The notes beneath the pieces are model-generated. The model ran no database searches and had not been told where the DNA came from. It worked only from the letters and a program-made list of their open reading frames with translations. The position numbers were made by a program, and so were the translations under genes. Positions 1-22,536 of a stretch of 27,772 nt of DNA are shown in pieces. How positions within the stretch are numbered: position 1 is the first letter of the stretch; the number at the start of each line of letters is the position of its first letter. Origin of the DNA: Spirogloea muscicola (taxonomy: Eukaryota; Streptophyta; Zygnematophyceae; Spirogloeales; Spirogloeaceae); the NCBI GenBank assembly GCA_009602725.1, contig WELB01000273.1, positions 108,324-136,095 of the forward strand, written 5' to 3'.

Positions 1-1921
1 GGCACCGCCGTCGGGCCGGGCGCCGCCATCGGCGCCGGCTGCGTGGTGGGGCCCGGCGTGCGCCTCGGCCGCGACGCCACGCTCGCGTGAGCGCCGCACT
101 CACAGCCGCTGCCACTGCTTCTCGCGCGCCTCCGGCTCCCCTGTACCTCATTAGTCTGGAAACTGAAATCTATCAGGCCGTGTTGACGTGATTGTGCGCC
201 GTCGCCAGGTACAATGTGGCGCTGCAGAACTGCACGGTCGGGGACCGCTGCACCTTCCACAGCGGCGCCTGCGTCGGCCAAGATGGTGCGCCACCCACCT
301 CTGCGCTGCAGCGAGGCGGCCTCTCTTGCCGCACTCCAGGTGGCCCAGCCCGTGCTGTCAGTGTGGCCCAAGTGCTCGCTCGTCCCTGGCGCACTGGCCG
401 ACAGCTGGGGCCTGGCTTGCTGATGCGGCTTCACGGCTGCCCGGGCTCTGGCAGAGCAGGCTTCGGATTCACCATCGACAACGAGGGCCGGGTCGTGAAG
501 AAGCCCCAGGTGGGTCCGGGTCGGCAGGTCACACCACCTCGCTGCAGAGTGCCCATGTCACGCTCAGTGTGTAGGTGGAGCCTGGCCCACCATATGCGCT
601 GTCAAAGAGGCTGGTGTCCAACGTCGCCGTCCTTGATGTCGCGAGACCACTGCCGCTGATCTGCAAGCTGCCTCGATGCTCTATTCAGCTTCTGCGTGTG
701 ATCATTGGGGACGACGTCGAGGTGGGCGCTAATTCCTGCATTGACCGCGGGAGGTGCAAACCGGAGCCCTCAGCAAGGCTTCGGCACAGGCTGTTGACCT
801 GTCGCCGTTAAAGTGCAGAGGTAGGCGCACCACCGAGTGTCATGCGATTCTATGCGACTCCCTAACACCTCCACTGCTCTTTCCTCTACGGCAGCTGGCG
901 TGACACCGTCATTGGGGACTGCGTGAAGATTGACAACCTTGTCCAGGTTTGTCTTTCAGTGCTCTGCCTTTTGCATTCAGAATAACGGACCTTTACTTGC
1001 CTTTGCGGCACTGTGCACCTGAGTCGAATGGCACAAGCCACGCGGGCAGTTGCTGAGACGTGTGGAATCGTATGCAGATTGGGCACAACGTGGTTATCGG
1101 GCGCTGCTGCCTGCTGTGTGGCCAGGTTGGCCTGGGTGGCTCGTCTACGTGCGTATGCCTCCCCATTCCTTGACTTGGTGACCTTTCGGCGCCTCATGTT
1201 TTTGGTCTTGCAGCTACTTTACCTCTGCCAGACCCCCAATGTGGCTCCAGTGCATTCTGTGCATGGTCCTACCACAGACACCAATTGGTTAAGTTCACGT
1301 TGCGATACTATGACATGCCTGGCGATGGCCCTGCCGAGGCACTGCAAGTAACGGCCACTTCTGGCCGTCGATGACTGCAGGCTTGGTGACTACGTGATAT
1401 TGGGAGGCAAAGCGGGCGTTGCTGATCACATGTCCATCTGCTCCAAGGTGCTCTTACACACCTTCACGTACACGGAGACTCTCCAAGAGCTAGTGCTTTT
1501 TTCAGTCGTGGGGCCCTAGCAATACAGGGCAAGACTGTTGTCAGATGGTGAGGTACCACAGCATTGTGTCACTTTGTGATCATTGTGTACGTCCATGATG
1601 ATCCAACAGGTGCGTGTTGCTGCAAAGGCCGGTGTGATGCGTGACATCACTGAACCAGGAGATTATGCTGGCTTCCCTGCAGTGAGTTGCTCTTCTTTTG
1701 ACAACGCCTTGTACAAGAGGCTGGCACTCGACTTCTTGATATCTCTGTTCAGTATCAATTTCCTGGGAGTCAAAGTGACTAACTTAAAGTAGCTTCAGTT
1801 GTAGTGCAGCTACCTACTACTTAACCAGCTCATGGGTAATGAACAGGTACCAGCACGAGAGTGGCGCAAGGCGGCTATTGCTTTCAGGCAGATGGGGCGC
1901 TCAACGTCCAAGCCAGATTGA
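1..1921 (+). CDS. lpxD: LpxD, UDP-3-O-acylglucosamine N-acyltransferase, spliced, 5' partial
   Basis: Adds the N-linked hydroxyacyl chain to UDP-3-O-acylglucosamine in lipid A-type synthesis; in plants the pathway is mitochondrial. Nine exons join in one frame (204 residues plus stop): 1-86, 209-285, 460-509, 689-753, 895-946, 1078-1148, 1381-1447, 1610-1681, 1847-1921, each flanked by GT and AG. The product shows hexapeptide repeats of the left-handed beta-helix ([20 protein letters not shown]), then [48 protein letters not shown] with the expected catalytic His, GGKAGVADH and [18 protein letters not shown], in family order. The N-terminal uridine-binding domain and start codon lie before the window. 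Exon 1 is about 86% GC, exon 8 about 56%. It ends 390 bp from the convergent KNL1 gene. Plant-type LpxD is the only reading I consider likely. Confidence 0.93.
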
Positions 1922-10160: not shown

Positions 10161-10422
10161 TGAAGTGGCCTCTCACAGCAGAAAGAAGTGGCCTCTCACA
10201 GCCATTGCCCTAAATCGTAAAATGCTGTATGCTTTTCCAAAGGGGCTGTGGAAAGGCCAGCCCAGACAGAATGAACAAGGTCCAACCGGCCGAAAGGCGC
10301 CAAGACCACACGCTGTGCAAGAGTAGAAAGCGGCTGCTGATATGAAAGAATCGGCTGTGAAATGCCAGCCAGATGCATACAGGTGTTCATGACGGAGCCA
10401 AAGGCTAGGCAGACAGGGCGCC
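10160..10422 (-). repeat. Hairpin module and associated 3'-tail repeat
   Basis: Contains a - strand hairpin module (10235-10307: GGGGCTGTGG...CCAGCCC with AATGAACAAGGTCC beside it). It also holds a tail block (about 10336-10410) that recurs at 11115-11172, 13295-13392 and 17792-17866 and carries a shared TGGCTCCGTCATGAA core. Read on the - strand, both lie downstream of the stop of the 10424-10776 fragment, so they look like its 3' UTR. Confidence 0.65.
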
Positions 10423-10423
10423 C

Positions 10424-10776
10424 TCAATACCCCCGTGTCAGCAGTAGGAAGTCAGATGAGCTGAGGGGAGGAAGAGCAACCCCGCTGCGCAAGCCAGAGG
10501 CTGCTGCAAGGGCGCGACCAGCCCGGCAGTGCAAAGCAATCGCCTGGGAGCGCTGTAGGCACATGGACAATCGCATACGGTAGCAGGAAACAAGACCCAA
10601 AGGCACCGAGCCACCGGGAAGGGCAGCACCCTGTTCCCGGCGCCGCTGGTCAGCTTGAGAGGCCAGCAGCGAAATTAACGAGGACCACCGACCCCCACAC
10701 CCATGGATGTCCACGGCCAGGGGGTAGAAGGTATCATCCGCCGGGTGGTCCTTGTACTTGTATACGCTATGCAAAG
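10424..10776 (-). pseudogene. 5'-truncated LINE-like nuclease C-terminus (copy b)
   Basis: The - strand frame carries KDHPADDTFYPLAVDIHG, then YRMRLSMCLQRSQAIALHCR and GRALAAASGL, and ends FLLLTRGY-stop. It aligns by eye to the last 120 or so residues of the long frame at 15207-16584. It starts abruptly at about 10776, next to the 3' end of the repeat at 10779. It has no start codon or upstream domain of its own, so it is a truncated retrocopy or relic. Confidence 0.75.
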
Positions 10777-10778
10777 AG

Positions 10779-11067
10779 AATTTCGTGTATTTGAAACAAA
10801 CGAAGGCCAAAGGCCAAGTACAAAGGCAAGCACATCTAAAGACCTACATAATCTACAGCAAAGTGACCCGCTCAGTAACCACGGGTCAAAACATAAAGGT
10901 CGCTAATCGATGCCTGAATACTAGATGTCAGATACGAAGCCCTTCTGCCACCAACTAGAGCTCGGCCAGCTTTCTGGTGCAAGGCATTAGCCTGAGCATG
11001 CTGCAAACAGGCCGAAAAACGTCGTCGCAAGAAAGACGGATATGCAGCTGGCAAGCCCAACTCAACC
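10779..11067 (-). mobile_element. 289-bp 5'-truncated LINE-like copy, inverted twin of 16585-16873
   Basis: By eye it differs from the reverse complement of 16585-16873 at about 4 of 289 positions, with no length change. It encodes LPAAYPSFLRRRFSACLQHA, KAGRALVGGR and SISDLYVLTRGY-stop, then about 95 bp of non-coding tail ending in TTCGTGTATTTGAAAC when read on the + strand. Flanks ATGCAAAGAG (10769-10778) and ATGCAAGAG (11072-11080) resemble a degraded target-site duplication. It belongs to a subfamily whose tail lacks the GGGCTGGC hairpin. Confidence 0.85.
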
Positions 11068-11660
11068 AACCATGCAAGAGTACAGCGAAGGAGTGTGTAT
11101 TACAGCGAAGGGTGGCAGCTTTTAAAGGCCAGCCAGGTGCATACAGAATTTGCCTAGTCTGTGGCTCCGTTGAGGTGGGCATTGTATCGGATCCGGGCAA
11201 ACTGCTAATCAGTAATAGCCGGTCTGCAGACGATGCTCTGTCCACCCTGGACGTCTTGCACAATATACTTTGAAGTCCTTCCTTCGAATGGGAGAAACAA
11301 CTCATCCAATATGAAATAATTCTTTCTTGGCTGGCTTTGCTGGCCCCCTTTTTCTATGGGCGAGCACTTTCTAACACCAGGCAATAGTTGTGAGAAAAAC
11401 TCATCCAAAGAGTAGAAAGAAGTGGCTCTTCCATAGGACGGATTCGTGTATTTGAGACAAACGAAGGCCAAATGGCCAAGTACAAAGGCAAGCACTCCAA
11501 AGGGGGCGAGGGCTGTGAAAAGCCAGCCCGAAAATAAGTGACAAGGTCCTGGTGAGAGGTCAGCCCAAAGGAATGAAGAAGGTCTGAAAAGCCTGGAAGG
11601 CGCAAAGACATGTAATCACTCTATGTGACTCCTGCGGAAGGACGCTCAATAACCTCTACT
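11068..11660. repeat. Mosaic of tail repeats and hairpin modules, both strands
   Basis: Holds a tail block (11115-11172, -), a + hairpin module (11328-11370, CTGGCTTTGCTGG then CTATGGGCGAGC), a tail fragment of the 289-bp subfamily (11443-11495), and - hairpin modules (11500-11590, with CTGTGAAAAGCCAGCCC and a second GGTCAGCCC unit). No gene is supported; open frames here run through the repeats. Confidence 0.65.
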
Positions 11661-11679
11661 GACCAGTTGCACCGCAGTG

Positions 11680-12398
11680 CAAGTGCGAGTGCGAGTGCAG
11701 CGCGTGTGCGGAACAGGCAACGCTGATCCTGCGGAGTTAACTGCGCACATGCTTCGCTGCGCACACGGGGGAGAGTGGACCAGGTTTTATGATCTCCTGC
11801 ATGACGTATGCTCGGCGTGTTCCTGGAGGCCAGCTATACCGTAGCCTTGGATACGATGTGTGTCATGCCCATTCAGCTGGGGCCTGACCGTCGTCTCCTT
11901 ACACGGTGCGCTGACCTCGTCGCCTATCCTGCCCGGAGGGGTTCCCCAGCATCTTAGCGGACGATGTGACTTACTACTCTGTCGACTCCGCCAACACCAT
12001 CAACTTGGCCGCGGAAGCAGGGCAGGCGATTGGCAAGCTGCTAGCGGAGAAGAGCGCAAGTAAGCGGACCACCCTGCCGTCGATGAGTTTGTGGCACTGG
12101 CGATGGACGTGCATGGGACATTTGGCAGGCGGTTGGTGGCTGGACCTCTCACAGCGGCTTGCACGGCGGGCCATCAATCGTCGTTAGCGACAGCAAGGTG
12201 AGCTGTCCAGCTTCAACGCCGCCGGTCGCTTGCCTCAGTTACGCATGTGGCTCTCCATATCTTTTTTGCGGTCCCAGGCTCATGCCGTGCACTTGCGGAC
12301 AGGCCGAGCTTTGGCTGCTGCTTTTGGGTTTTGTCGGGGCGAGTTCTTGTCCAGCTGCAAGTCAGTCCGACTTGCGGCTGCTGACTCGGGGTTACTAA
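11680..12398 (+). pseudogene. Degenerate LINE-like nuclease region (copy c)
   Basis: Successive frames match the long copy in order: a Cys-rich start, ELTAHMLRCAHGGEWTRFYD, a segment like the PD-(D/E)XK region (RCADLVAYPAR), SQRLARRAINRR, then a copy of the GRALAAA block and SDLRLLTRGY-stop. Frames change at least twice and an in-frame stop follows INRR, so it cannot be translated. It is the second longest copy in the window. Confidence 0.75.
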
Positions 12399-12427
12399 GC
12401 TTCCACTTGCATAGCTGTGTAAGTTTA

Positions 12428-13028
12428 GCCCCTTTTGGCCCTTTGGCGCTTGTCCATTCTGTCTGGGCTGGCTTTGTACAGCCCTCGCCCCCTTTTGGAA
12501 GCGCCCTTTCCTTTCTTGAAGCACCCGGCTGGCTTTCACAGCTGCTTCTGAATATGAGCAGCAGAATTGTGCTTATATGATGGACTCTATTTCTCTATTA
12601 CGTGGCCTCTCACAGCCAATGCCTTACGTTTGAAGAGCTGTTTCTATCTTGTAGCACGGGCCTCGCGCACGCAGTACCAGAAAAAAGAGAGAGAGACTCT
12701 TCCAAACGAGGGCGATGGCTGTGAGTGGCCAGCCCAGAAAGCCAATGTTGTGTAACGAAGTCCGAAGGGGCCAGAAAAGCCCACCCACTCCGTAGTGGCA
12801 TGGGCCTCTCGCGCTCTCGACTCAGCTCTCCGTCTTTAGTGATTGCTTGCTTTCCTGGGTGTCATTCGCTTTCTGACTCCTTTGGACCATGATAACAACT
12901 TTTTGAGCTGGCTTCTCAAAACCCTCGCCCCCTTTGGAAACTGCTTCTTCTCCTCTCTTATTGGATTCTGTATATTTTATGGGCTGGCCCTTCACAGCCC
13001 TCGCCCACTTGCCAACTTGCTGCTTCGT
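12428..13028. repeat. Group of hairpin modules
   Basis: Modules: 12428-12506 (+, TTGTCCATTCTGTCTGGGCT...CAGCCCTCGCCCC), 12699-12780 (-), 12880-12950 (+, weakly conserved) and 12960-13028 (+, GGGCTGGCCC...CAGCCCTCGCCC). The first lies about 30 bp after the stop of copy c and looks like its 3' UTR. No coding sequence is recognised. Confidence 0.65.
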
Positions 13029-13930
13029 TCTCCGCAGCCTTGCTCCGCATGCTTCCAGTCGCCTGATGTCAGTCAGCTGCGACCAATGAAGAGCTGGCTT
13101 CGCTGCTAACTGGAGCTGGCTGACAGGTCGATGGGTACTATCATTGCCGGCTCATAGGATGTGCCCCGCCCGCCTTCAAAGAATACGTACTTGCCACTGG
13201 TGCAAATTGTTCAGGACATTGTCTGCCACGGTCCAGCTCGATTTGATGATTTCAAGCATGATCATCCCACCCGGCTCTTGCCATATCATCTCGCAGAAGT
13301 GGCCTCCTGCTTTGTGGCTCCGTCATGAAGACCTGTATGCATCTGGCTGGCTTTTACAGCCGCTCCTAAAATATCAGCAGCCGCATTCTGTGTGCAGGCT
13401 CAACGACCAACTTGTCAAAACTCAGGCACACTAAGGACAGTAGCAATCAAAGTCTTTCTGGCCAGAAGTGCTTGTGGTGTTTCAATCACACTGCTGTAAT
13501 CCTAAGGCCTCCTTCAGCACTGTGACTTCTCTAGGACATCATTTTTGAATCGAAGGATGCTTCTGAGAGGCCAAGATGCTGCCTGCCACGCGCCAGGTGG
13601 GGGAAGGAGGGCAATTCCAGTTATGCAGGTCCAGGAAGAAGTGGGTTGCTGAGGTAATGGACGACTGCTTTGCGTGCCTCAGAGGTCCTTGCATTCAGAT
13701 TGATTGGACGCCTGTCACTGCGCTTAACTTGGTGGAGGCAAGTACAAGGGCGGTGCAAAAGTACCTGTAGAGTGTGTGCTAATGATTGGATATTCCAGAG
13801 CTCAGTATTTGGTTGCTTCTTATCTGTCGCTTTACCGACCGTTTGACTTTTTCGGCTCCGAGTGTCACCTCTGAGTGTTGAATGATCTAGTCTCAGTCAG
13901 TACAAGGCTGTAAGTGGCCAGCCCGCGTAC
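13029..13930. other. No recognised gene; one tail repeat and a short unassigned frame
   Basis: The tail block recurs at 13295-13392. A + frame at 13576-13770 encodes 64 residues (with RKKWVAEVMDDC and CIQIDWTPVTALNLVEAS) and matches nothing I recognise. It could be chance or part of the repeat family. A - hairpin fragment is at 13897-13927. Confidence 0.4.
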
Positions 13931-13934
13931 ACAG

Positions 13935-13993
13935 CCTCCCCTTTGTTAGGCTGCCTCTTCTTCCGACTTGCGGCTGCTGACCAGGGGTCAGTG
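13935..13993 (+). pseudogene. Minimal LINE-like C-terminus (copy i)
   Basis: Only the last dozen or so codons remain: SSDLRLLTRG followed by Q-stop. The same terminal motif is seen in the other copies. Confidence 0.6.
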
Positions 13994-14650
13994 AGCAGGC
14001 TTGCTCGGTGAGGAAGACGCTATCAGAAGAGGGCGGTCGGTGGTGTCTCCGATTACGGAATCCCTTGAACCTTTGGACCTTGGACCTTGGACCTTTGCGG
14101 GCCCGCTGTCACGGCCCTCTGACCTCCTTTGGTGCCGCTGCTTCAGATTCTTCTTCTACGAAAGAAGAAGGCGCGCGGTGCGCATGAAACAAAAAGGAGG
14201 AATTCTAGCCAACACATTGTTCAGGCAAAACTAGCACAAAAAGATCTGAGGCTATATAAAACGAAGCCTTATGGTAAGGTGGCTAAGGTAACAGTGTGAC
14301 GTTCGTACAGAAAAAGAGGACGAGTGAGCTCTTGGAAAGGGGGGGCTCTGTTCGGCCCCTTCGGACCTTGTCAATCCTTTGCGGGCTAGCTACTCACAGC
14401 TGGCTATACTTCTGTCTACAGCCCTTGCCCCCTTTGGGAGAGCCACTTTCTTGAGAAGGGGGCTTCGGACTGGGAGAGGCCAGCCGGAAGAGATGGACAA
14501 GGAACGAAGGGCTCGGAAAAAGACAAGAAAGCGCGGCCAGATTGACTGGTGGCTGGGAAAGGAAGAGAAGTGGCTCTCCCGAAGAGGCAAGGGCTGTGAA
14601 AAGTTAGCCCGACAAGATCTGACAAGGTTCGAAGGGGCCAAAAGCGCTGG
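13994..14650. repeat. Hairpin modules in both orientations
   Basis: A diverged + module sits at 14075-14160, with TTGGACC repeated three times at its start. 14358-14455 holds a + module with two CAGC arms. 14455-14515 (-, GAGAGGCCAGCCGG) and 14574-14645 (-, GGCTGTGAAAAGTTAGCCC) follow; the last lies after the stop of copy d on the - strand. No gene is supported. Confidence 0.6.
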
Positions 14651-14679
14651 CTCAGAATTTGGGTAGGATGAATTAGTCA

Positions 14680-15065
14680 AAAGCACAAGTGAGGAGCCGC
14701 ATATCCGAAAGACTATCATCCGGAAGGCAATTCTCTTGACGAAAGATAGAGGCTGCAGCGAGAGCACGGCCAGCACGCAGGTGCAAGGTGTGGGCAGGGG
14801 ACCGCTGGAGGAAATGGAAAGGCGCATGCGGTAGACTTGAGCAAGCGAGCCAGCGGCATTGAAGTCAGCCGGCTCACCTCACCTGCGGGACACAGCGCGC
14901 CGCGCAAGCCTGGCTAGCAGGTCGAGCCACTGGGAGCCGAGAGCCCCGTGCACATGCACGGCCAGGGGTACGAACTCGTCTCCGGCCGGGTGGTCGGAGT
15001 GCTTCGCCGCCTTGGCTGCTACCGGGCGAAGGTTGAGGAAGGGCGGTGCAGCCTTATCCTGGTGT
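14680..15065 (-). pseudogene. 5'-truncated LINE-like copy d
   Basis: The - strand encodes AAKAAKHSDHPAGDEFVPLA, HGALGSQWLDLLARLARRAV and, after a frame break, SLAQVYRMRLSI and LSDMRLLTCAF-stop. These match the long frame's last third. It begins directly beside the hairpin module 15078-15150, which follows the stop of the 15207-16584 frame. On the - strand the order is therefore body, hairpin, body, hairpin. Confidence 0.75.
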
Positions 15066-15077
15066 GGTGGAGAAGAA

Positions 15078-15150
15078 AGGGCTCGCCCATTGAGGATATG
15101 GGCTGGAACAGCCAGCCCAAAAAGGAATGAACAAAGTACCAGAAGGGGGC
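15078..15150 (-). repeat. Hairpin module in the 3' UTR of the long nuclease frame
   Basis: On the - strand it reads TTTGTTCATTCCTTTTTGGG, CTGGCTGTTCCAGCCC, then a stretch ending ATGGGCGAGCCC, about 60 bp after the TGA. The stem is GGGCTGG / CCAGCCC with a TGGC-type loop border. Confidence 0.75.
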
Positions 15151-15206
15151 TAGGCGAAGCATTAAGGAAGACAAGCACAAAAAGAAACAATGCAGCTACG
15201 AATCAC

Positions 15207-16584
15207 TCAGTAACCCCTGCTAAGCAGTCGTAGGTCAGAGATGCTAGGCTGCTGGAAGTGGGTCCCCTGACCAGAGCCAGAGGCAGCAGCAAGGGCGCGG
15301 CCGGCACGCAGGTGCAGCGCGCCGGCCATTGACCGCTGCAGCGAGATGGCCACGCGCATGCGGTACACCTGCGCGAGCGACCCGGCTGCAGGGAAGTCCA
15401 CCGGCTCCCCATGGAAGCGGCGGGCGATGGCGTGGCGGGCGAGCTGGTTGAAGAGTTCTAGCCACCGAGCACCCAACGCCCCATGGGTGTCGATAGCCAG
15501 CGGAAAGAACACGTCTTCCAGCGGATGGTCAGCATACTTCAGCTCCTTTGCCCGAGCGGCGCAGGCGACCGCATGCCCAGCCTTGGTGGCACACTGGGCG
15601 GGGTGGGAGCGGTCGAATGCGTCGGTAGTCACCACGTCTAGGAGAAGACGTGGCCCACCGGCTTGTGGGGTGGCCACAAGGTCGACACGACGTGCGTGGA
15701 GACCGTCGGCCCTTTCCTGGAGCGGCATGACGCCGGAGTGCTTTGCTGCCACCGAGTAGCCAGCCTCCACCAGGATGCCATGCATCGCATCCCGGAGGCG
15801 GTCGTGGGCCGCCGTCCGCTCTCCGCCGTGGGAACAGCGCAGAACGTGGGCAGCCAGCTCGCCAGGCCCGGACCCTCGCTCGCCACATTCGCATTGACGC
15901 ACACCTTGAAGGCATGGCGGCGGCAGGCCAAGCAGCCGGTGAACGGCAGTGCGAAAGACCTCGTCGGAGAGCGTGAGGGCGTCGTTGATGGGGAGGGCCT
16001 GAAGCCACGCCGCTGCCCTCGGGAAAGAGGCCGTTTGCAGTCGTGCGCCCCCGCGCAGGTCGGCCTCGGGGATCTGCAGCACGGCGGTGGTGAACGCGGC
16101 CTTGTCGACCACGGCCGCGAAGCGCGCTTGGACACGCAGGTCAGCGGTGTGCGCGAGGTGCGCAAAGGAGACCGCCTGGCCTGCCAGGTCCGGGTGCGCC
16201 GCGAGCAGCTCCTGGTGGGCGGAGCGAAGCGACACCTGGAACGGCAGCGCGCCTGTGTCAACCTCCACCACCGCCTGCTCCAGTGCACGCCGGCCGTGGA
16301 CCATGAAGCGCTGGGCCACAGAGGCGGCAGTCTGCGCCCAGCTGCCGAGGTATGCAGCCCGGCAAGAACGGGCGAGCGGGCGCAGGCCGAGACCACCGTG
16401 GCTGAGGGGTAGCGCCGCCTGGTGGAGCCCGCCAGTTCCAAGTGGGGCCCCACCGGGCCACGAGGGCTGCCAGCGCCGGACAAGGCGGGAGGCGGAGGTC
16501 CAGGCCCCCGGTTGGCGGCAGCGCGAGAATGGGGGCGCGCCGCACGGCCAATCTAGGCTACACACGTCGTGCAGGTGTGTTTCC
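15207..16584 (-). CDS. LINE-type retrotransposon polyprotein, C-terminal part: Zn cluster plus PD-(D/E)XK-like nuclease
   Basis: About 455 codons without a stop. Order: ALPLSHGGLGLRPLARSC, the block that usually follows the reverse transcriptase and thumb of LINE-like proteins; a helical segment; a Cys/His cluster (CECGERG, then HVLRCSHGGERTAAHDRL); then ARRVDLVATPQAGG and LLLDVVTTDAF, a D-x(n)-D-V-V pair resembling PD-(D/E)XK restriction-like endonucleases; FFPLAIDTHGALGARWLEL; YRMRVAISLQRS; and SISDLRLLSRGY-stop. The catalytic RT part is absent: homology ends near 16584, where the inverted 289-bp repeat begins. The first ATG (16610) lies inside that repeat, so no genuine start is proposed. 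Compared with its neighbours it has no breaks, suggesting recent insertion. The fold assignment is by motif only. Confidence 0.75.
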
Positions 16585-16873
16585 GGTTGAGTTGGGCTTG
16601 CCAGCTGCATATCTGTCTTTCTTGCGACGACGTGTTTCGGCCTGTTTGCAGCATGCTCAGGCTAATGCCTTGCACCAGAAAGCTGGCCGAGCTCTAGTTG
16701 GTGGCAGAAGGGCTTCGTATCTGACATCTAGTATTCAGGCATCGATTAGCGACCTTTATGTTTCGACCCGTGGTTACTGAGCGGGTCAATTTGCTGTAGA
16801 TTATGTAGGTCTTTAGATGTGCTTGCCTTTGTACTTGGCCTTTGGCCTTCGTTTGTTTCAAATACACGAAATT
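16585..16873 (+). mobile_element. 289-bp LINE-like copy, inverted twin of 10779-11067
   Basis: Same content as its twin: a C-terminal coding piece ending SISDLYVSTRGY-stop (16778-16780) and a tail containing CTTTGGCCTTCGTTTGTTTC. It abuts, head to head, the point where the long - strand frame loses homology. It therefore either inserted there and displaced the 5' part or marks a rearrangement joint. No convincing target-site duplication. Confidence 0.85.
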
Positions 16874-16893
16874 GTTCTTGCCGCACGGAAGAT

Positions 16894-17007
16894 GGCTCGC
16901 CCATAGAGAAAGAGGGGCTGGCAAAGCCAGCCCACAAAGAATGGACAATGTCCAAAGCCGAAGAATGAGATGCCGAGGAAGGACTCCTCTATTCTACCAA
17001 TCACGAC
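16894..17007 (-). repeat. 114-bp hairpin repeat, inverted twin of 21703-21816
   Basis: Contains a perfect stem GGGCTGGC-AAA-GCCAGCCC (16915-16933), flanked by GGCTCGCCCATAGAGAAAG and AATGGACAATGTCCAAAGCC, itself a small GGACAATGTCC palindrome. By eye only about 3-4 positions differ from the reverse complement of 21703-21816. Confidence 0.85.
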
Positions 17008-17023
17008 AACATACTAGGGAAGC

Positions 17024-17281
17024 TCAGTACCCGCGAGTGAGCAACATCAGGTCTGAGTAGCTCGAGGCAGGGAAGGAGGCACTCCGCCGAGACCCGGAGG
17101 CAGCGGCCAGAGCGCGTCCTGCGCGAGTGTGGACAGCGTGGGCAAGGGATCGCTGGAACGATACCGCCAAGCGCATGCGAAAGACCTGGGCGAGCGACCC
17201 GGCGGCGTTGAAGCCGGGCAGCGCCCCGGGCGGACGGGCATCGGGGCGAGCCGCGGGCTGATTTGTCGCCCATTGCGACAA
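17024..17281 (-). pseudogene. 5'-truncated LINE-like copy e
   Basis: Encodes GFNAAGSLAQVFRMRLAVSF, AVHTRAGRALAAASGSR and SYSDLMLLTRGY-stop, open from its 5' break to the stop. It matches the last 85 or so residues of the long frame closely. Confidence 0.75.
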
Positions 17282-17284
17282 ATC

Positions 17285-17350
17285 ACTTTGTTCTCTTTGG
17301 GCTGGGCCTTTCCCAGCCCCTATCCTCTACGGGCGCGCACTTCTTCTTGC
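17285..17350 (+). repeat. Hairpin module
   Basis: TTCTCTTTGGGCTGGGCC, then CCCAGCCCCTATCCTCTACG and GGCGCGCACTTCTTC. Stem GGGCTGGG / CCCAGCCC. Confidence 0.7.
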
Positions 17351-17469
17351 GGCGGGGCCGCTGCCGCGCCGTTTGCGCGCCCGCGCCCCGCCCCCCCGCT
17401 GGAGGAAGAAAGAAAGACTCTTCCAGCAGAGAGGAAGAAAGGACGCTTCAGGAGAGGGCGGTGGCTGGG

Positions 17470-17685
17470 AGAGGGTCGTCAGGGCGACGTCTTCCCGCCC
17501 TCTAGCTTTTCTGACCTGCACTTGCTGACTAGAGGTTCTTCTTGAGGTTACTGAGAGCCTCCTTGTCGTCTTTAGCACTTAGTCCCCTGCTTTCTGCGCC
17601 AGTCGGCTCCTCTTGACCTTGTCCATTCCTTTTGGGCTGGCTTCTCCCAGCCACCGGTCAATTTGGCCGCGCTTTTCCTGAGAGG
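17470..17685 (+). pseudogene. LINE-like C-terminus (copy h) with its hairpin 3' tail
   Basis: Coding remnant QGDVFPPSSFSDLHLLTRG, followed by a local duplication around the stop (GGTTCTTCTTGAGGTTACTG). A tail of about 60 bp leads to a hairpin module at 17607-17685 (GACCTTGTCCATTCCTTTTG, GGCTGGCTTCTCCCAGCC). It shows the stop-to-hairpin order clearly. Confidence 0.7.
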
Positions 17686-17791
17686 CCACCCCAAAGAAAC
17701 GAGTGAACAATGTAGAGGGCGATAGCTGTGATGGCCGGTGATGGCCGGGGATACTAAGAGCGCCCTGCATGCCCAGCCTGCGCCTTTCTTC

Positions 17792-17866
17792 TGTGGCTCC
17801 GCTAACCTAGTCATGAACACGCTTTTATGCTAGACTAGTATCTGTATTCACCTGGCTGGCTTGCAG
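17792..17866 (+). repeat. Tail repeat block
   Basis: Shares TGTGGCTCCG, CATGAACAC, TCTGTATTCACCTGGCTGGC with blocks at 10336-10410, 11115-11172 and 13295-13392. Interpreted as part of a longer 3' UTR subfamily. Confidence 0.5.
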
Positions 17867-17869
17867 ACG

Positions 17870-18075
17870 TTGTCACCACCGACTGCTTTGATTCCAGGAG
17901 CTCTCGTTGAGGAGGCAGGCTATGCAGTCCGCCACGCAGCGGGCGCCAAGGAGAGGAAGTACGCAGATCACAACGCTGGCGACGACTTTGTCGCGCTTGC
18001 AGTCGACGCCCACGGGGCGCTTGGGACTCAGTAGCTCGACCTACTCCGGTGACTTGCGCGGGCTGCTGTGAGGAC
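17870..18075 (+). pseudogene. LINE-like copy f, internally deleted
   Basis: Encodes LVEEAGYAVRHAAGAKERKY, then DHNAGDDFVALAVDAHGALG, then TQ-stop. Against the long frame it lacks the nuclease-core segment between AGYSV and AKELKY. It appears to continue into copy g beyond an AT-rich insertion. Confidence 0.65.
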
Positions 18076-18258
18076 AAAACATTGGTCTTTCCTATGAGCA
18101 GACGATTGAAATAAAGAACTGTTCCCTTAGATACTTACGAATATATAAGGGCGTACAAGTTATGTCTATGTATATCTACGATGAAATGGAAGGCTATTAT
18201 CGCCTTCTTAATATGCAGGATCTTGAGAGTCTAATTCATACTTTACTGGCCCCTTAAT
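18076..18258. other. AT-rich insertion within a LINE-like copy
   Basis: About 180 bp, far richer in A/T than its surroundings, containing ACGAATATATAAGGGCGTAC and several short TAT-rich runs. It separates the two halves of one degenerate copy (f and g). No open frame or terminal repeat is evident. Origin unknown. Confidence 0.5.
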
Positions 18259-18484
18259 GTATAAGTGCCGCCAAGGGCAGCAGAGTGAGCAGCCCGGGTT
18301 CGATGCTGTCGGGTTGCTTGTTCAAAAGTACAGGATGCGCCTTGCAATCCCTCTGCAGCGGTCCTTAGCATTTGCCGTCCACTTGCATGCAGGCCGCGCC
18401 GTGGCTGCTGCCTCCACGTTCCCTCAGGGCGACGCATTTCCGTCCACTTATTCTGACTTGCACTTGCTAACTAAAGGTTACTGA
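18259..18484 (+). pseudogene. 5'-truncated LINE-like copy g
   Basis: Encodes YRMRLAIPLQRSLAFAVHLH, AGRAVAAAS, then TYSDLHLLTKGY-stop. Followed after about 70 bp by a GACCTTGTACATTCCC tail without an intact hairpin. Confidence 0.7.
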
Positions 18485-18589
18485 GATTCCACTTGCTGAC
18501 GTCTTGGAGACTAGCATCCTGCTTTTTGCGCCATCCGGCCCTTTCAGACCTTGTACATTCCCTGCCAAAGGCACAGCGAGAGTGAGCCA

Positions 18590-18910
18590 GCTCTTCAAAG
18601 AAGGAAAGGAAGTGGCTCTCAAAAAGTGGCTCTGAGAAACGCCAGCCCGAGAAGAAGGATAGAAAGGCTGTGGACAGGCCAGCCCCAAAAATTCTTCCAG
18701 GAGAGGGTGATGGCTCTGATCGGCCAGCCAAGATGAAGATTGTCCGGAAAGGATTGACAGGAGGAGAAAGACGCTCCATCAGAGGGCGATGACTGTGAGT
18801 TGCCAACCCAAAGAAGAACACAAAGTCGAAGGGACCAGAGAAAGCGCTAAAGGAGGACACTTTCAGGAGAGGGCGGTGGCTGTGACAGGCCAGCCCAGGA
18901 AAGGAATCGT
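18590..18910 (-). repeat. Tandem group of about five hairpin modules
   Basis: Units at about 18611-18660, 18670-18692, 18698-18740, 18770-18835 and 18850-18905 repeat the pattern GAGRGNGRTGGCTNTGANNGGCCAGCC with irregular spacing (R = purine). They carry no nuclease-derived coding sequence. Confidence 0.65.
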
Positions 18911-19159
18911 TACAGACGGGACTGGCTTAATTAACAGCGCTTCCAGATTGACTGGCTTATTGGGGTCATACGCGTGGTCAAGCAGGTATACAAAGCACAC
19001 AGTGACTCAACGATTCCCACTAAACACTCTGTAATCCCTGAGGGAGGTAGCCCCCTGAGGCGCCACGTCAAGCTGCGCTCTGGCGGCGCGGGGCCCGCGC
19101 TGGGCGTGCGAAAATGGAGAGTGTATAATGTGATGGAGGGTCTGATTGGCCAATTAGAA
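18911..19159. other. No recognised feature
   Basis: Mixed-composition DNA between two repeats. Open frames are short and unrecognised, and no repeat unit is apparent. Confidence 0.5.
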
Positions 19160-19407
19160 TGGCAAGCACATTGACAGACATACATTACCTGCTGCTAAGC
19201 TGACCTGCTCACTTACCACGAGTCAGCACATAGAGGTCGCTAACTGATACCCAACTACCAGACTGCATTGACAAGCTCTTGTGCCACCAGCTAAGGCTCG
19301 ACCAGCTTTTTAATGCAAGCATGAGCCTGAGCTCATGCTTGCAAACAGTTTGACACACGACTTCGCAAAAAAGACAAAGAAGCTCCCGGCATGCCCATCT
19401 GGACTGG
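19160..19407 (-). pseudogene. Diverged copy of the 289-bp element
   Basis: Aligns by eye along most of 10779-11067 in the same order (GGCAAGCACA, AGGTCGCTAA, TGCCACCAGCTAAGGCTCG, TGCTTGCAAACAG) but with many differences and small indels. It is an older member of the same subfamily. Confidence 0.65.
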
Positions 19408-19700
19408 AAGCATATGACGCGTCGTGCATATCATAGACGTGCGATATTCTCAAGTAGGGTATAAAACGAGGACCCATGCAGCCAAAAATGTCAATCTGCG
19501 GCTGGTGGGAGGTAAACTATGCGGGGGTAGTCAGATTAGTGTTGCAGCTTTCTCTGCTCTCCGCTTCCCACTGCGTAACCAGCAACGTGGGTCGATGCTG
19601 GACTCTTTCACGCCTCCGTCACAACCACATCGACCAAGTCTCGTGGACCTCCGCCAGATTATATACCACTTTGTCTAGTGTGCGACGGCGATGGCATTTC
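19408..19700. other. No recognised gene
   Basis: Short open frames on both strands resemble nothing known to me. No hairpin module until 19702. Confidence 0.45.
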
Positions 19701-19701
19701 T

Positions 19702-20075
19702 GTGACTGGGCTGGCCTTGTCGATTCTTTTTGGGTTGGCCATTCACAGCCCTTGCCCCCATTGGGAGTGCCACTTCTTGCCCCCCTTTGGAAGATTAACT
19801 TCCCTCTCACAGCCACCGCCCTCTCCTGGAAGCACACGAAATTCTCCTGGAAGCGTCGTTTCTTGATGATGGCGTGTAGCAAGATGATGATGGTGTGATG
19901 ATGATGTGATGGCGCGTGATGGCGTGCCGGGTGAGCGCCGGCCTTCGGAAAGAGATACTTTCCTTCCATTGCCACCACCCTTGCCTGGAAGCGTCCTTTC
20001 TTCAACGATGGCGTTCGGCAAGATGATGATGGTGTGATCATGTGATGGCGCGTGATGCGGATTGAGCGCCCGGGC
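19702..20075 (+). repeat. Hairpin module followed by a tandem duplication with GATGATG runs
   Basis: A hairpin module (19702-19790: GATTCTTTTTGGGTTGGCC, CACAGCCCTTGCCCCC) precedes two direct copies of a unit of about 110-130 bp, at 19803-19935 and 19967-20070. Each has CCTGGAAGCGTC, GTTCGGCAAGATGATGATGG (or the GTAGCAAG variant), then GTGATGGCGCGTGATG and TGAGCGCC. The units differ by several substitutions and a duplicated TCCTGGAAGC in the first. Confidence 0.65.
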
Positions 20076-20129
20076 GGGGGGCGCGCGGGCGTGCGGCTAA
20101 CCGGGCGGGGGCGCGAACGGGGCGCACCG

Positions 20130-20350
20130 GCCACGAGACGCGCTGGCTGTGAAAGGCTAGCGCCCCCACAAAAGACAAGCTCGAGGGGAGGCCCAACATG
20201 ACCGGACAACCCGCCCTACGAGACCAAGTAAAACGTATTCCAACAACCGTCGGAGGGCTGCCGCCTAGGAGCCTGCAAAAGAGCGCAGTGGCAATGGAGT
20301 GCTCTTTCCAAGGGAACGGCGGCCGAGACAGGCCGGCCCAGAAGAATAAC
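20130..20350 (-). repeat. Diverged hairpin modules
   Basis: 20135-20190 (CTGGCTGTGAAAGGCTAGCG with GACAAGCTCGAGGGG) and 20293-20345 (GGCCGAGACAGGCCGGCCC). Both are in the minus orientation and weaker than the others. Confidence 0.5.
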
Positions 20351-21360
20351 ACGCCTTTAAGAGCAGCACCAGCAGAGAGCTGCCAGAGAGCACGATGTTC
20401 ATCCTACTCGCCAACCCAGTCCTCATCGGCAATTGAAGGTCGAAGGTCGAAGAGAGAAGCATGTACTACAATTGGACACTGGATCAACAGAGAGGCAATC
20501 CTCAAATTACTGGCAGAGCTAAGAGACCCAGTGTTAGCAGAAAAGGCTCATCGGACTCAGAACGACATCCACTCTCGAAAGGCAGCAACCTCACCTCAAC
20601 AAAGGAATAATATAAAGACTGGCATCAAGAAGTTGCCCTTGACACGTGAAGGAAGGGTAAAGTGGGTGTAAATAGATTGAGAACTTGAGCAGAAGTTTAC
20701 AGCTACTACTGCCCCAGTTAATCTGTCAGCTGAGGACTTGCAAGAATGGCATCACATAGTATTCGCTGTTCATGTGGCAAGAAGAGGTGTAGTCCGGGGT
20801 AGGAGAATCATGGGAAGTGATAGAGGAAAATATCGAGCACGTGCGTGAGAGCTCCATTCTTACTCAGGCGATTCATCAGTGCCAGATTTCCATTTGGTTG
20901 ACACTCCATGTAAGCATCTCTCGGAGTACCACTGAAGGGCTTTAAGCAGAAGAGCTGCAATATTTCAAGGTATCCAAGGGCTCGAAGAGGCGAAGTGAGG
21001 CGTTCGCAGCGCTTAGAATGTGTAAACACGGCTCTGAACACTGTACAAGCGCACCAGCCTGCCTTTTACGTTGTCGGCTGCCTCAGGATGGCCAGTTTGC
21101 CTTGGAAAAGGCCTCTTTGCAGCGCACCAGCAGGATCTCAGGACCACAGGCCCTTGACCATCAGAGCTCCACGTTTGTTCCTGTCAGACAAGATTGATAT
21201 TCCTGATGTTTTCCAGCTGCTCGGATGTATGTTGGCCCGCTTCGGAGGACTACATGTAGGACAAGGAGCCTCTATCCTGCCGCGCTATCACCACCCCCCT
21301 TACTGTTCTTCCAGACAACTGGGAACTGGAATCAGGAGGGAGGGGATGTGGAGGTGGGGG
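20351..21360. other. Low-repeat island with unassigned coding-like frames
   Basis: About 1 kb without hairpin modules or nuclease remnants, with more moderate GC. A + frame to 20671 includes IGHWINREAILKLLAELRD and EKAHRTQNDIHSRKA. Another + frame near 20690-20840 includes NLSAEDLQEWHHIVFAVHVA. A - frame at 20808-21041 includes LEILQLFCLKPFSGTPRDAY. A + frame at 20995-21498 includes DKIDIPDVFQLLGCMLARFG. I recognise no family in any of them. They may be pieces of a decayed gene or another element, or chance. Confidence 0.35.
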
Positions 21361-21365
21361 AGGCT

Positions 21366-22095
21366 AATTGAGAGGCCAGCCAAAGAGAGAAGGGGCGCGG
21401 AGCGCATAAATCGAAAGGGTGGTCAAATCAAAGAGGCAAAAGCTAGTGCAAACGTGGGGCTACCTCAAACGAAGCCCTGCGCTAAGGTGGCAAGGTAACA
21501 GAGAGAAAGAGGGAAGAAGCATTTGTGAAAGAGGGCGATGTTTGAAGTGGCCTGTAGTGGCGTTGTATGGGCTGGCTTTTCACAGCCCTTGCCCCCATTG
21601 GGAGAGCCAGTTTTCTTCTGTAGCGGCCACGCACTTTGCCGAGGGGCTCGTCCTCTCGAACCTTGTTCATTCATTTTGGGCTGGCCGTTCCCAGCCCCTA
21701 TCCGTCGTGATTGGTAGCGTAGAGGAGTCCTTCCTCGGCATCTCATTCTTCGGCTTTGGACATTGTCCATTCTTTTTGGGCTGGCTTTGCCAGCCCCTCT
21801 TTCTCTATGGGCGAGCCTTCTTCTATCCTCTATCGTTCTTTGTTCATTCTTTTTTGGGCTGGCTTGTCCAGCCCCTATCCTCAATGGGCGAGCCCTTTCT
21901 TCTATGGGCGAGCACTTCCCTCTCTTTGTAGTTGAGGTCAGTGAGTGGCCCTCCGGAATGTCCACTTGCTTCGCGTGTTTGCGCTTTTCCCCATTGGGAG
22001 TTCCACTTCTTCTTTCCGGCTCCTCAGAATCCGGACGATGTTGTCGGGCTGGTCCTTTCGCAGCCAACGCCTCCCCCCTCTCGGAAAGCTCCTGC
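21366..22095. repeat. Dense hairpin-module array
   Basis: One - fragment (21366-21403) and then + modules at 21553-21620 (GGGCTGGCTTTTCACAGCCC), 21653-21702 (CTTGTTCATTCATTTTGGG), 21752-21830 (perfect stem), 21834-21920 (GGGCTGGCTTGTCCAGCCCC, with GGGCGAGC twice) and 22005-22095 (diverged). Units follow the order TTGTNCATTC, hairpin, (T)GGG(C/A)GAGCC, TTCTTC. No nuclease remnant separates them. Confidence 0.75.
21703..21816 (+). repeat. 114-bp hairpin repeat, inverted twin of 16894-17007
   Basis: Perfect stem GGGCTGGC-TTT-GCCAGCCC at 21778-21796, preceded by GGACATTGTCC. Near-identical to the reverse complement of 16894-17007 from CGTGATTGGTAG to GGGCGAGCC. Confidence 0.85.
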
Positions 22096-22536
22096 TGCTG
22101 TTCTGCTGTTTCCGCTTTCCGGTCCCTGCCGGGCACCTGGACCGCTCCAGTCGGGCCGGCCTTGTCATAGCCCCCTCGGAGCTCAAGTCTTTCGCAGCCA
22201 CCTGCCCGTTCGGAAGAGGGGGGGGCCTTCTTCTCGTCCTTCTCGGCGACAGGCGGGCCAACACAAGAATGTCAAACCAAACCATGCTACACAACAACAC
22301 AGCAGAGGGAGGGTGGCAAGGGCGAGGCGCCCATCGGGAAAGAGGGGCTAGCAAAGCGGACAGGATGCAGAGGAGCGTGTACAAGGTGTGCCAGGGCCGG
22401 AAGGCGCCAAGAGCAGGAACCTACCCAACCCAGGGGGGAGGAGAGGCCGCCCACCCCCTGGCCACACCACTCCGCCGGCCCAGGCGCCGGCAGCTGCCTG
22501 CCGCACGCATTCTCGGCCCCCCCCGCCGCCGCCGCC
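22096..22536. other. Upstream region of the PC-esterase gene, with a decayed hairpin module
   Basis: A - module at 22327-22415 (CGCCCATCGGGAAAGAGGGG, CTAGCAAAGC, ...GTGCCAGGGCCGGAAGG) ends about 120 bp before the start codon, so the gene's promoter probably includes or abuts repeat DNA. No TATA box recognised. Confidence 0.5.

Follow-up and report, generated by a model that had tools for sequence, protein, structure and literature searches.

The 27,772-base stretch of contig WELB01000273.1 analysed here, which we refer to as the window, reads as nuclear, eukaryotic DNA, with a GC content of 49-72% per kb. Between approximately 10.2 and 22.1 kb it contains a retroelement island, where many broken copies of an element resembling long interspersed nuclear elements (LINEs) are packed into about 12 kb; tblastn with the longest reading frame of this element gave a best match outside the island of E 0.15, and none better than E 0.005. 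Within the island a short hairpin-bearing module recurs, both behind the coding ends of the element and on its own (solo modules), and this module is probably the 3' tail of the element.

The longest C-terminal open reading frame (ORF) belongs to copy A1 (15210-16610, minus strand, 467 aa). It ends in SDLRLLSRGY, carries a C/H cluster and motifs resembling those of restriction-like endonucleases (RLEs), and was judged by eye to be the region C-terminal to the reverse transcriptase (RT); the ORF begins within an antisense copy of another subtype (B, described below), and the real start of the fragment lies near 16560. When this ORF was used as a tblastn query, the same C-terminus was found in further copies on both strands of the window, most of which terminate in SDLxLLTRGY, or in a close variant of it, ahead of a stop. 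All five conserved C-terminal ends given in a preliminary description of this DNA were recovered, near 10424 (-), 12396 (+), 14672-14690 (-), 15207 (-) and 17545 (+), and to these we add ends at 17024 (-), 18484 (+) and approximately 13993 (+), as well as weaker remnants at 11648 (-) and 17755 (+). The copies differ in preservation: the C-terminus of A2 (14672-15016, -) has one stop and one frame change, A3 (10427-10759, -) and A4 (17027-17212, -; absent from the earlier list) are likewise C-termini, the decayed copy A5 (11615-12398, +) retains the RLE-like region as well as the C-terminus, and A6 (17851-18484, +) lies in two pieces. Remnants A10 (13956-14139, +, with its module; SSSDLRLLTRG) and A11 (17500-17672, +, likewise with its module; SFSDLHLLTRG) are weak tblastn matches (E 3.0 and E 0.34, respectively) that were accepted for their SDLxLLTRG ends.

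The family had been described as nuclease-bearing, which stands at the level of motifs. The A1 ORF has RVD-X14-D at aa 308 (RVDLVATPQAGGPRLLLD), the RVD/D reading being our own, and KELKY at aa 355 (15534-15548, -), which matches the KX2KY motif that occupies the place of the catalytic lysine in LINE RLEs; excerpts of PMC5678591 give KX2KY with a displaced catalytic lysine as a mark of these enzymes. A PD-(D/E)XK-type core with its K in KX2KY can therefore be recognised in the A1 ORF, at the motif level only. The CCHC knuckle that precedes the LINE nuclease is given in the same excerpts as CX2-3CX7-8HX4C, whereas the cluster at aa 240 of the A1 ORF reads CX1CX12HX3C, and because this spacing differs we do not claim membership among the RLE-encoding LINEs, only that the element works like them. 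Two AlphaFold2 predictions had a mean predicted local distance difference test score of 36.5 and 45.1, too poor for a fold search and of no use for the nuclease claim, and Pfam and PDB sequence searches with the ORFs of the element gave no significant match. Searches for relatives by protein pattern gave 3 and 126 matches in viral contigs and 29 in genome contigs, none of which was confirmed, and a DNA pattern found none in viral contigs. The putative nuclease identity of the family is supported by motif only. No N-terminal part, such as would hold an apurinic/apyrimidinic endonuclease (APE), was recognised in the window, and the copies appear to be truncated downstream of the RT core.

The module consists of box 1 (TTGTYCATTC), an inner hairpin (GGGCTG-loop-CAGCCC, up to 8 bp) and box 3 (GGGNGAGCC). 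Exact box 1 occurs eight times in the window, always in the island, versus approximately 0.1 occurrences expected with uniform bases; seven further sites have one mismatch, five of them in the island. All 19 exact occurrences of GGGCTGGC in the window are in the island, while exact box 3 occurs nine times, including one site outside the island (6119) and one outside any module (17244). A covariance model of 61 positions, built from 17 modules, returned 33 matches at E ≤ 1 (17 of them the training set) and 23 at E ≤ 0.01, with a best E of 1e-17; all 33 fall within 10,229-22,074, with none elsewhere in the window at E ≤ 1, and the weak matches at 11423 and 17671 have no hairpin. The module is real and confined to the island. 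It follows A1 at 15079-15139 (-), A2 at 14571-14630 (-), A4 at 16893-16953 (-; 8-bp inner stem and an outer stem) and A5 at 12445-12505 (+), and by eye the better-preserved copies end CTT-rich, with no poly(A). The proposal that all three boxes follow each of the first five stops holds for the hairpin (five of five, imperfect at 14610) and largely for box 1 (exact in four of five), and fails for box 3, exact in only two of five.

A second type of 3' end (C) has its own boxes and shares the hairpin core GGCTGGC...CAGCC, with variable decay. Directly after the A3 stop at 10424 a C-type end comes first (10335-10400, -; hairpin TGGCTGGCATTTCACAGCCG at 10371-10352), and the A-type module (10229-10283, -; hairpin at 10263) follows as a second unit, the stop being 161 nt away. 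A solo C-type end lies at 13315-13385 (+), and further C-type ends are found at 12526 (+), 17853 (+) and 11135 (-).

The coupling of the hairpin to the 3' end of the family, as first proposed, is borne out by both position and conservation. A hairpin is present downstream on the same strand at nine of ten A- and C-type ends, with stop-to-hairpin distances of 89, 62, 53, 91, 69, 107, 89, 82 and 98 nt; at the tenth (A6) a box 1 with one mismatch remains at 18551 and the hairpin is broken off. Since 13.8% of island strand-positions are equally close to a hairpin, the binomial probability of nine in ten is 1.6e-7. Two ends, A12 and C2, came to light only when the sequence upstream of modules was inspected and are therefore biased; without them the count is seven of eight (binomial approximately 7e-6), and among the copies with tblastn E < 1e-10 (A1-A6) it is five of six. 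Hairpins were chosen by eye from 40 oriented candidates, with 35 entering the coupling test and 33 the stem test described below, which omitted the A6 box, 11566, 18648, 19708, 20163, 22352 and 10057 (11566 and 18648 being included in the coupling test). Stop positions are accurate to approximately 3 nt, except for A11, where the score profile has a second nearby stop, and A2, where the end is frame-shifted.

The score profile was calculated from seven copies (21 pairs), omitting A3 (whose first tail is C-type), A6 (hairpin missing) and C2 (C-type). Measured against letter shuffles, the mean alignment z was highest in the module (5.6), followed by the last 60 coding nt (2.9), the spacer (0.9) and the flank (0.0), and it exceeded 4 in 12, 8, 0 and 0 of the 21 pairs, respectively; by blastn, the homology between A1 and A4 begins at approximately -19 from the hairpin. 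A conserved 3'-terminal stem-loop after the stop, as in stringent-type LINE tails, is thus found in this family (nine of ten ends; module z of 5.6), and the profile is as expected of a functional 3' tail.

Single-sequence folding gave z values of -3.20 for the module of A1, -3.68 for A4 and -3.35 for A5, and in all three predicted folds the regions of box 1 and box 3 form an outer stem around the inner hairpin, so that the three boxes may form one structure; 19732 and 21569 have a similar pairing at a z that is not significant. Consensus folding on a MAFFT alignment was of little use, as loop lengths throw the arms out of register. Across 33 hairpins, 179 of 198 stem cells are paired (p 0.004) and there are eight double changes (p 0.0026). 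A T-A to C-G change occurs at 14099, in the GGGCC/GGCCC hairpin of A10, and at 20339. In the covariance model's own alignment, which leans towards the model structure, more pairs are counted, and the double changes were reached by 0 of 500 shuffles. Such a structure could also have been kept for the formation, stability or export of the transcript's 3' end rather than for RT binding, and the position near the RNA 3' end, the stable fold in three copies and tails that by eye are CTT-rich rather than poly(A) would suit this role. Nothing in the sequence speaks against it. The binding of LINE tails has direct precedent, as given in excerpts of PMC4176376, and we regard a role confined to such RNA functions as unlikely.

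Solo modules occur in the groups at 12880-13028, 18590-18910 and 21553-22095 that had been reported earlier, according to both the hairpin listing and the covariance model. The first comprises two modules head to tail (12885-13021, +); the second, on the minus strand, contains five hairpins head to tail (18640-18917), mostly of a D variant that lacks exact copies of boxes 1 and 3; and the third begins with a solo module at 21549-21609 (+). Other solo modules lie at 11492-11549 (-), 3' of both remnant A12, whose stop is near 11648, and a poorer hairpin (11566); at 14363-14436 (+), with a short insertion between ACAGC repeats; and at 17283-17340 (+), of the same subtype as the resident module at 21658 discussed below. 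The hairpin of the 14363 module contains a 17-nt stretch (14396-14422, +) with ACAGC on either side. Next to the 17283 module, between it and the upstream end of copy A4 (-), is a perfect 11-bp inverted repeat with a 5-nt loop (17259-17285; TGATTTGTCGC CCATT GCGACAAATCA).

Several solo modules prove to be nested. The 5' part of a resident module (21658-21703, +, up to CTATCC) is separated from its 3' part (21902-21920) by two insertions. The first (21704-21822, +) comprises 3' untranslated region (UTR) and an A4-subtype module, is 97% identical to 16888-17007 (the 3' UTR and module of A4), starts 74 nt upstream of its hairpin and is flanked by CTATCC at 21698 and 21823. The second (21834-21901, +) is an A1-subtype module (93% over 69 nt), with CTAT at 21830 and 21902, or TCTAT on both sides if the insert ends one base earlier. 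Removal of 21704-21822 and 21834-21901, each with one copy of its flanking repeat, restores a module that aligns to 17299 and to A1, with a score reached by 0 of 1000 random right flanks. In a further case, a D-type hairpin is interrupted in its loop: the 5' arm (19708-19716, +) is followed by an insert of an A-type module and a fragment resembling the 3' box (19717-19803, +), and the rest resumes at 19804. The joined 19708/19804 hairpin matches the 18896 module over 40 nt (score reached by 6 of 1000 random flanks); the insert has no clear target-site repeat and may be composite, possibly resulting from more than one event. Empty sites were looked for at modules only, and these cases do not provide a rate. 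Two related stretches with GATGATGGTGTGAT repeats were also noted at 19830-20060, each 3' of a D-type 3' box.

These insertions bear on the two origins that the preliminary description had offered for solo modules. At least two, namely the nested insertions at 21704 and 21834, are indeed 5'-truncated LINE copies. The alternative, a parasite resembling short interspersed nuclear elements (SINEs), in which a non-autonomous family would have borrowed the LINE tail, is suggested by the many solo modules, by the three that start approximately 17-25 nt upstream of the hairpin near the base of the outer stem (11529, 19732 and 21856), and by the SINE/LINE tail pairs of green algae, such as SINEX and RandI/Dualen in Chlamydomonas (excerpts of PMC3747384). 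However, a start near -20 also bounds the homology between the A1 and A4 3' UTRs and may therefore stem from conservation instead of marking a fixed head, and in other solo modules the similarity to LINE tails sets in at -74, approximately -32, approximately -26 or the hairpin itself, so that there is no single 5' start; the -74 copy carries LINE 3' UTR. No tRNA, 5S or 7SL head was found, a search of the island for B boxes that allowed one mismatch was negative as well (the A box was not searched for), and the only Rfam match at E ≤ 1 was a microRNA family (E 0.6), under its gathering score. A SINE-like origin is accordingly rather improbable, though less so for the shortest units, and truncated, partly nested LINE tails fit best. 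Of 14 pairs of neighbouring hairpins no more than 150 nt apart, 13 have the same orientation; tandem duplication was set aside as the origin of the arrays, as Tandem Repeats Finder gave six rows with periods of only 6-20 nt and no array of module-sized units. Least probable of all is that the module is a mobile or satellite-like repeat in its own right, with a chance preference for LINE 3' UTRs or gene-poor islands, for while some module groups have no coding sequence and C and A modules follow stops in both orders (10424, 12396), the similar same-strand stop distance at nine of ten ends, the 97% copy that spans spacer and module as one unit and the lack of an array of module-sized period all speak against it.

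We therefore favour, as fairly probable, the interpretation that a LINE-like retroelement with RLE motifs ends in this module as its structured 3' tail, that the tail is bound by the RT, and that early stops and self-nesting give rise to the solo arrays. In such a scheme, the RT of the element would bind the folded module in its RNA, a step that we infer by analogy, and, as in stringent-type LINEs, target-primed reverse transcription would begin close to the CTT end. Synthesis would often break off early, perhaps at the stems of the module itself, so that a copy retains no more than the module or a short piece of 3' UTR, and repeated insertion in the same orientation into or beside resident 3' ends would produce head-to-tail arrays of solo modules.

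Several results weigh against this interpretation. Among the ORFs scanned in the window there is no Pfam RT match, and there is no full-length copy within it; a recognised RT core is missing in all copies, as expected of 5'-truncated LINE copies. The other nine of the 12 folded 3' ends have z values between -1.60 and +0.76. Compensatory changes in the stem are suggestive when the C subtype is included, but without its five rows they are not significant (151 of 168 cells paired, p 0.23; three double changes, p 0.11), and when each distinct arm pair is counted once the p values are 0.08 and 0.06 for all hairpins and 0.49 and 0.34 without C. Swapping partners between boxes 1 and 3 gave p 0.15 (10 modules), 0.29 (22) and 0.37 (20), and covariation of the two boxes as an outer stem, which fold energies support in three copies, was not upheld by this test. 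The segments cannot be told apart by the percentage of identical aligned columns (71% in coding sequence, 74% in the spacer, 76% in the module and 69% in the flank), since gapped alignment inflates the identity of short sequences even when they are unrelated, and the conservation claim therefore rests on the scores. The same-strand tendency of neighbours falls to 14 of 18 at 200 nt and 16 of 22 at 300 nt, and to six of nine within 200 nt for model matches alone. None of the three B-type ends has a hairpin within 300 nt, and the tail is therefore not universal.

The B subtype has a C-terminus that resembles the A type (16583-16777, +; 10875-11027, -; 19268-19500, -), but its 3' end differs and lacks the module. 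The B-type 3' ends at 16585-16881 (+) and 10771-11067 (-) are 98% identical over 297 nt, and a longer B-related copy, also without a module, lies at 19148-19500 (-). The first two seem to share their 5' start position, and these 98%-identical copies could be a fixed-length non-autonomous unit.

All three insertions for which an empty site was reconstructed, in a search limited to modules, lie inside a resident module, at CTATCC, at TCTAT and in the hairpin loop. The module might have a dual role, as an RNA tail recognised by the enzyme and, in resident copies, as a preferred DNA landing site, an extension that we hold to be doubtful. If true, a LINE with RLE-like motifs would feed on its own tails and build arrays of recognition modules without harming genes.

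Outside the island, the left end of the window (1-500) encodes hexapeptide repeats (Pfam Hexapep, E 3.2e-6, 29-residue piece), which perhaps belong to a gene for an LpxD-like acyltransferase.

What is understood of stringent tail recognition comes mainly from animal LINEs, among them zebrafish ZfL2-1 and ZfL2-2, which are APE-type L2 LINEs. According to excerpts of PMC4176376, recognition of a stem-loop tail is established for stringent-type LINEs such as these, and the tail described here is like theirs, and like those in excerpts of the review PMC3747384, in having a conserved stem-loop near the 3' terminus that is kept by short copies. It differs in its RLE-like motifs, its ends, which look CTT-rich, and a nearly invariant stem, and its binding by the RT is putative. 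In Chlamydomonas, the RandI/Dualen LINEs and SINEX have repeat tails other than poly(A), and SINEs share the LINE 3' end, one with (CTTT)n (excerpts of PMC3747384); Dualen encodes an RLE besides an APE (excerpts of PMC4640811). Compared by description only, the present element is alike in a tail that by eye is CTT-rich rather than poly(A); no SINE head is found here. With the R2-like RLE LINEs (excerpts of PMC5678591) it shares KX2KY, RVD-X14-D and an upstream C/H cluster, and it differs in the CX1CX12HX3C spacing and in that the window has no rRNA match. Among the titles and abstract openings covered, which represent part of the literature, no RLE LINE with such a tail was described in an alga.

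The arrangement of the copies is closest to that of Zepp and ZeppL, which insert into existing copies, are frequently 5'-truncated and form clusters mostly of 3' ends (excerpts of PMC8226300). Zepp belongs to the L1 clade and has a poly(A) tail (excerpts of PMC3747384), unlike the CTT-rich ends and RLE-like motifs found here, and the likeness lies in nested arrays of 3' ends, seen here at two nested places and in same-strand neighbours. The best reading is thus a real, sharply bounded LINE 3' tail of the stringent type, with Zepp-like nesting of 3' ends. This does not overturn known biology and is ordinary in kind, but it is a useful new example: with RLE-like motifs, what may be a green-algal host, a compact 61-nt tail and numerous natural truncations, the element would lend itself to testing how both recognition and early stopping are set by the structure of the tail. 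Its self-nesting illustrates how an element can multiply at a distance from genes, as described for Zepp.

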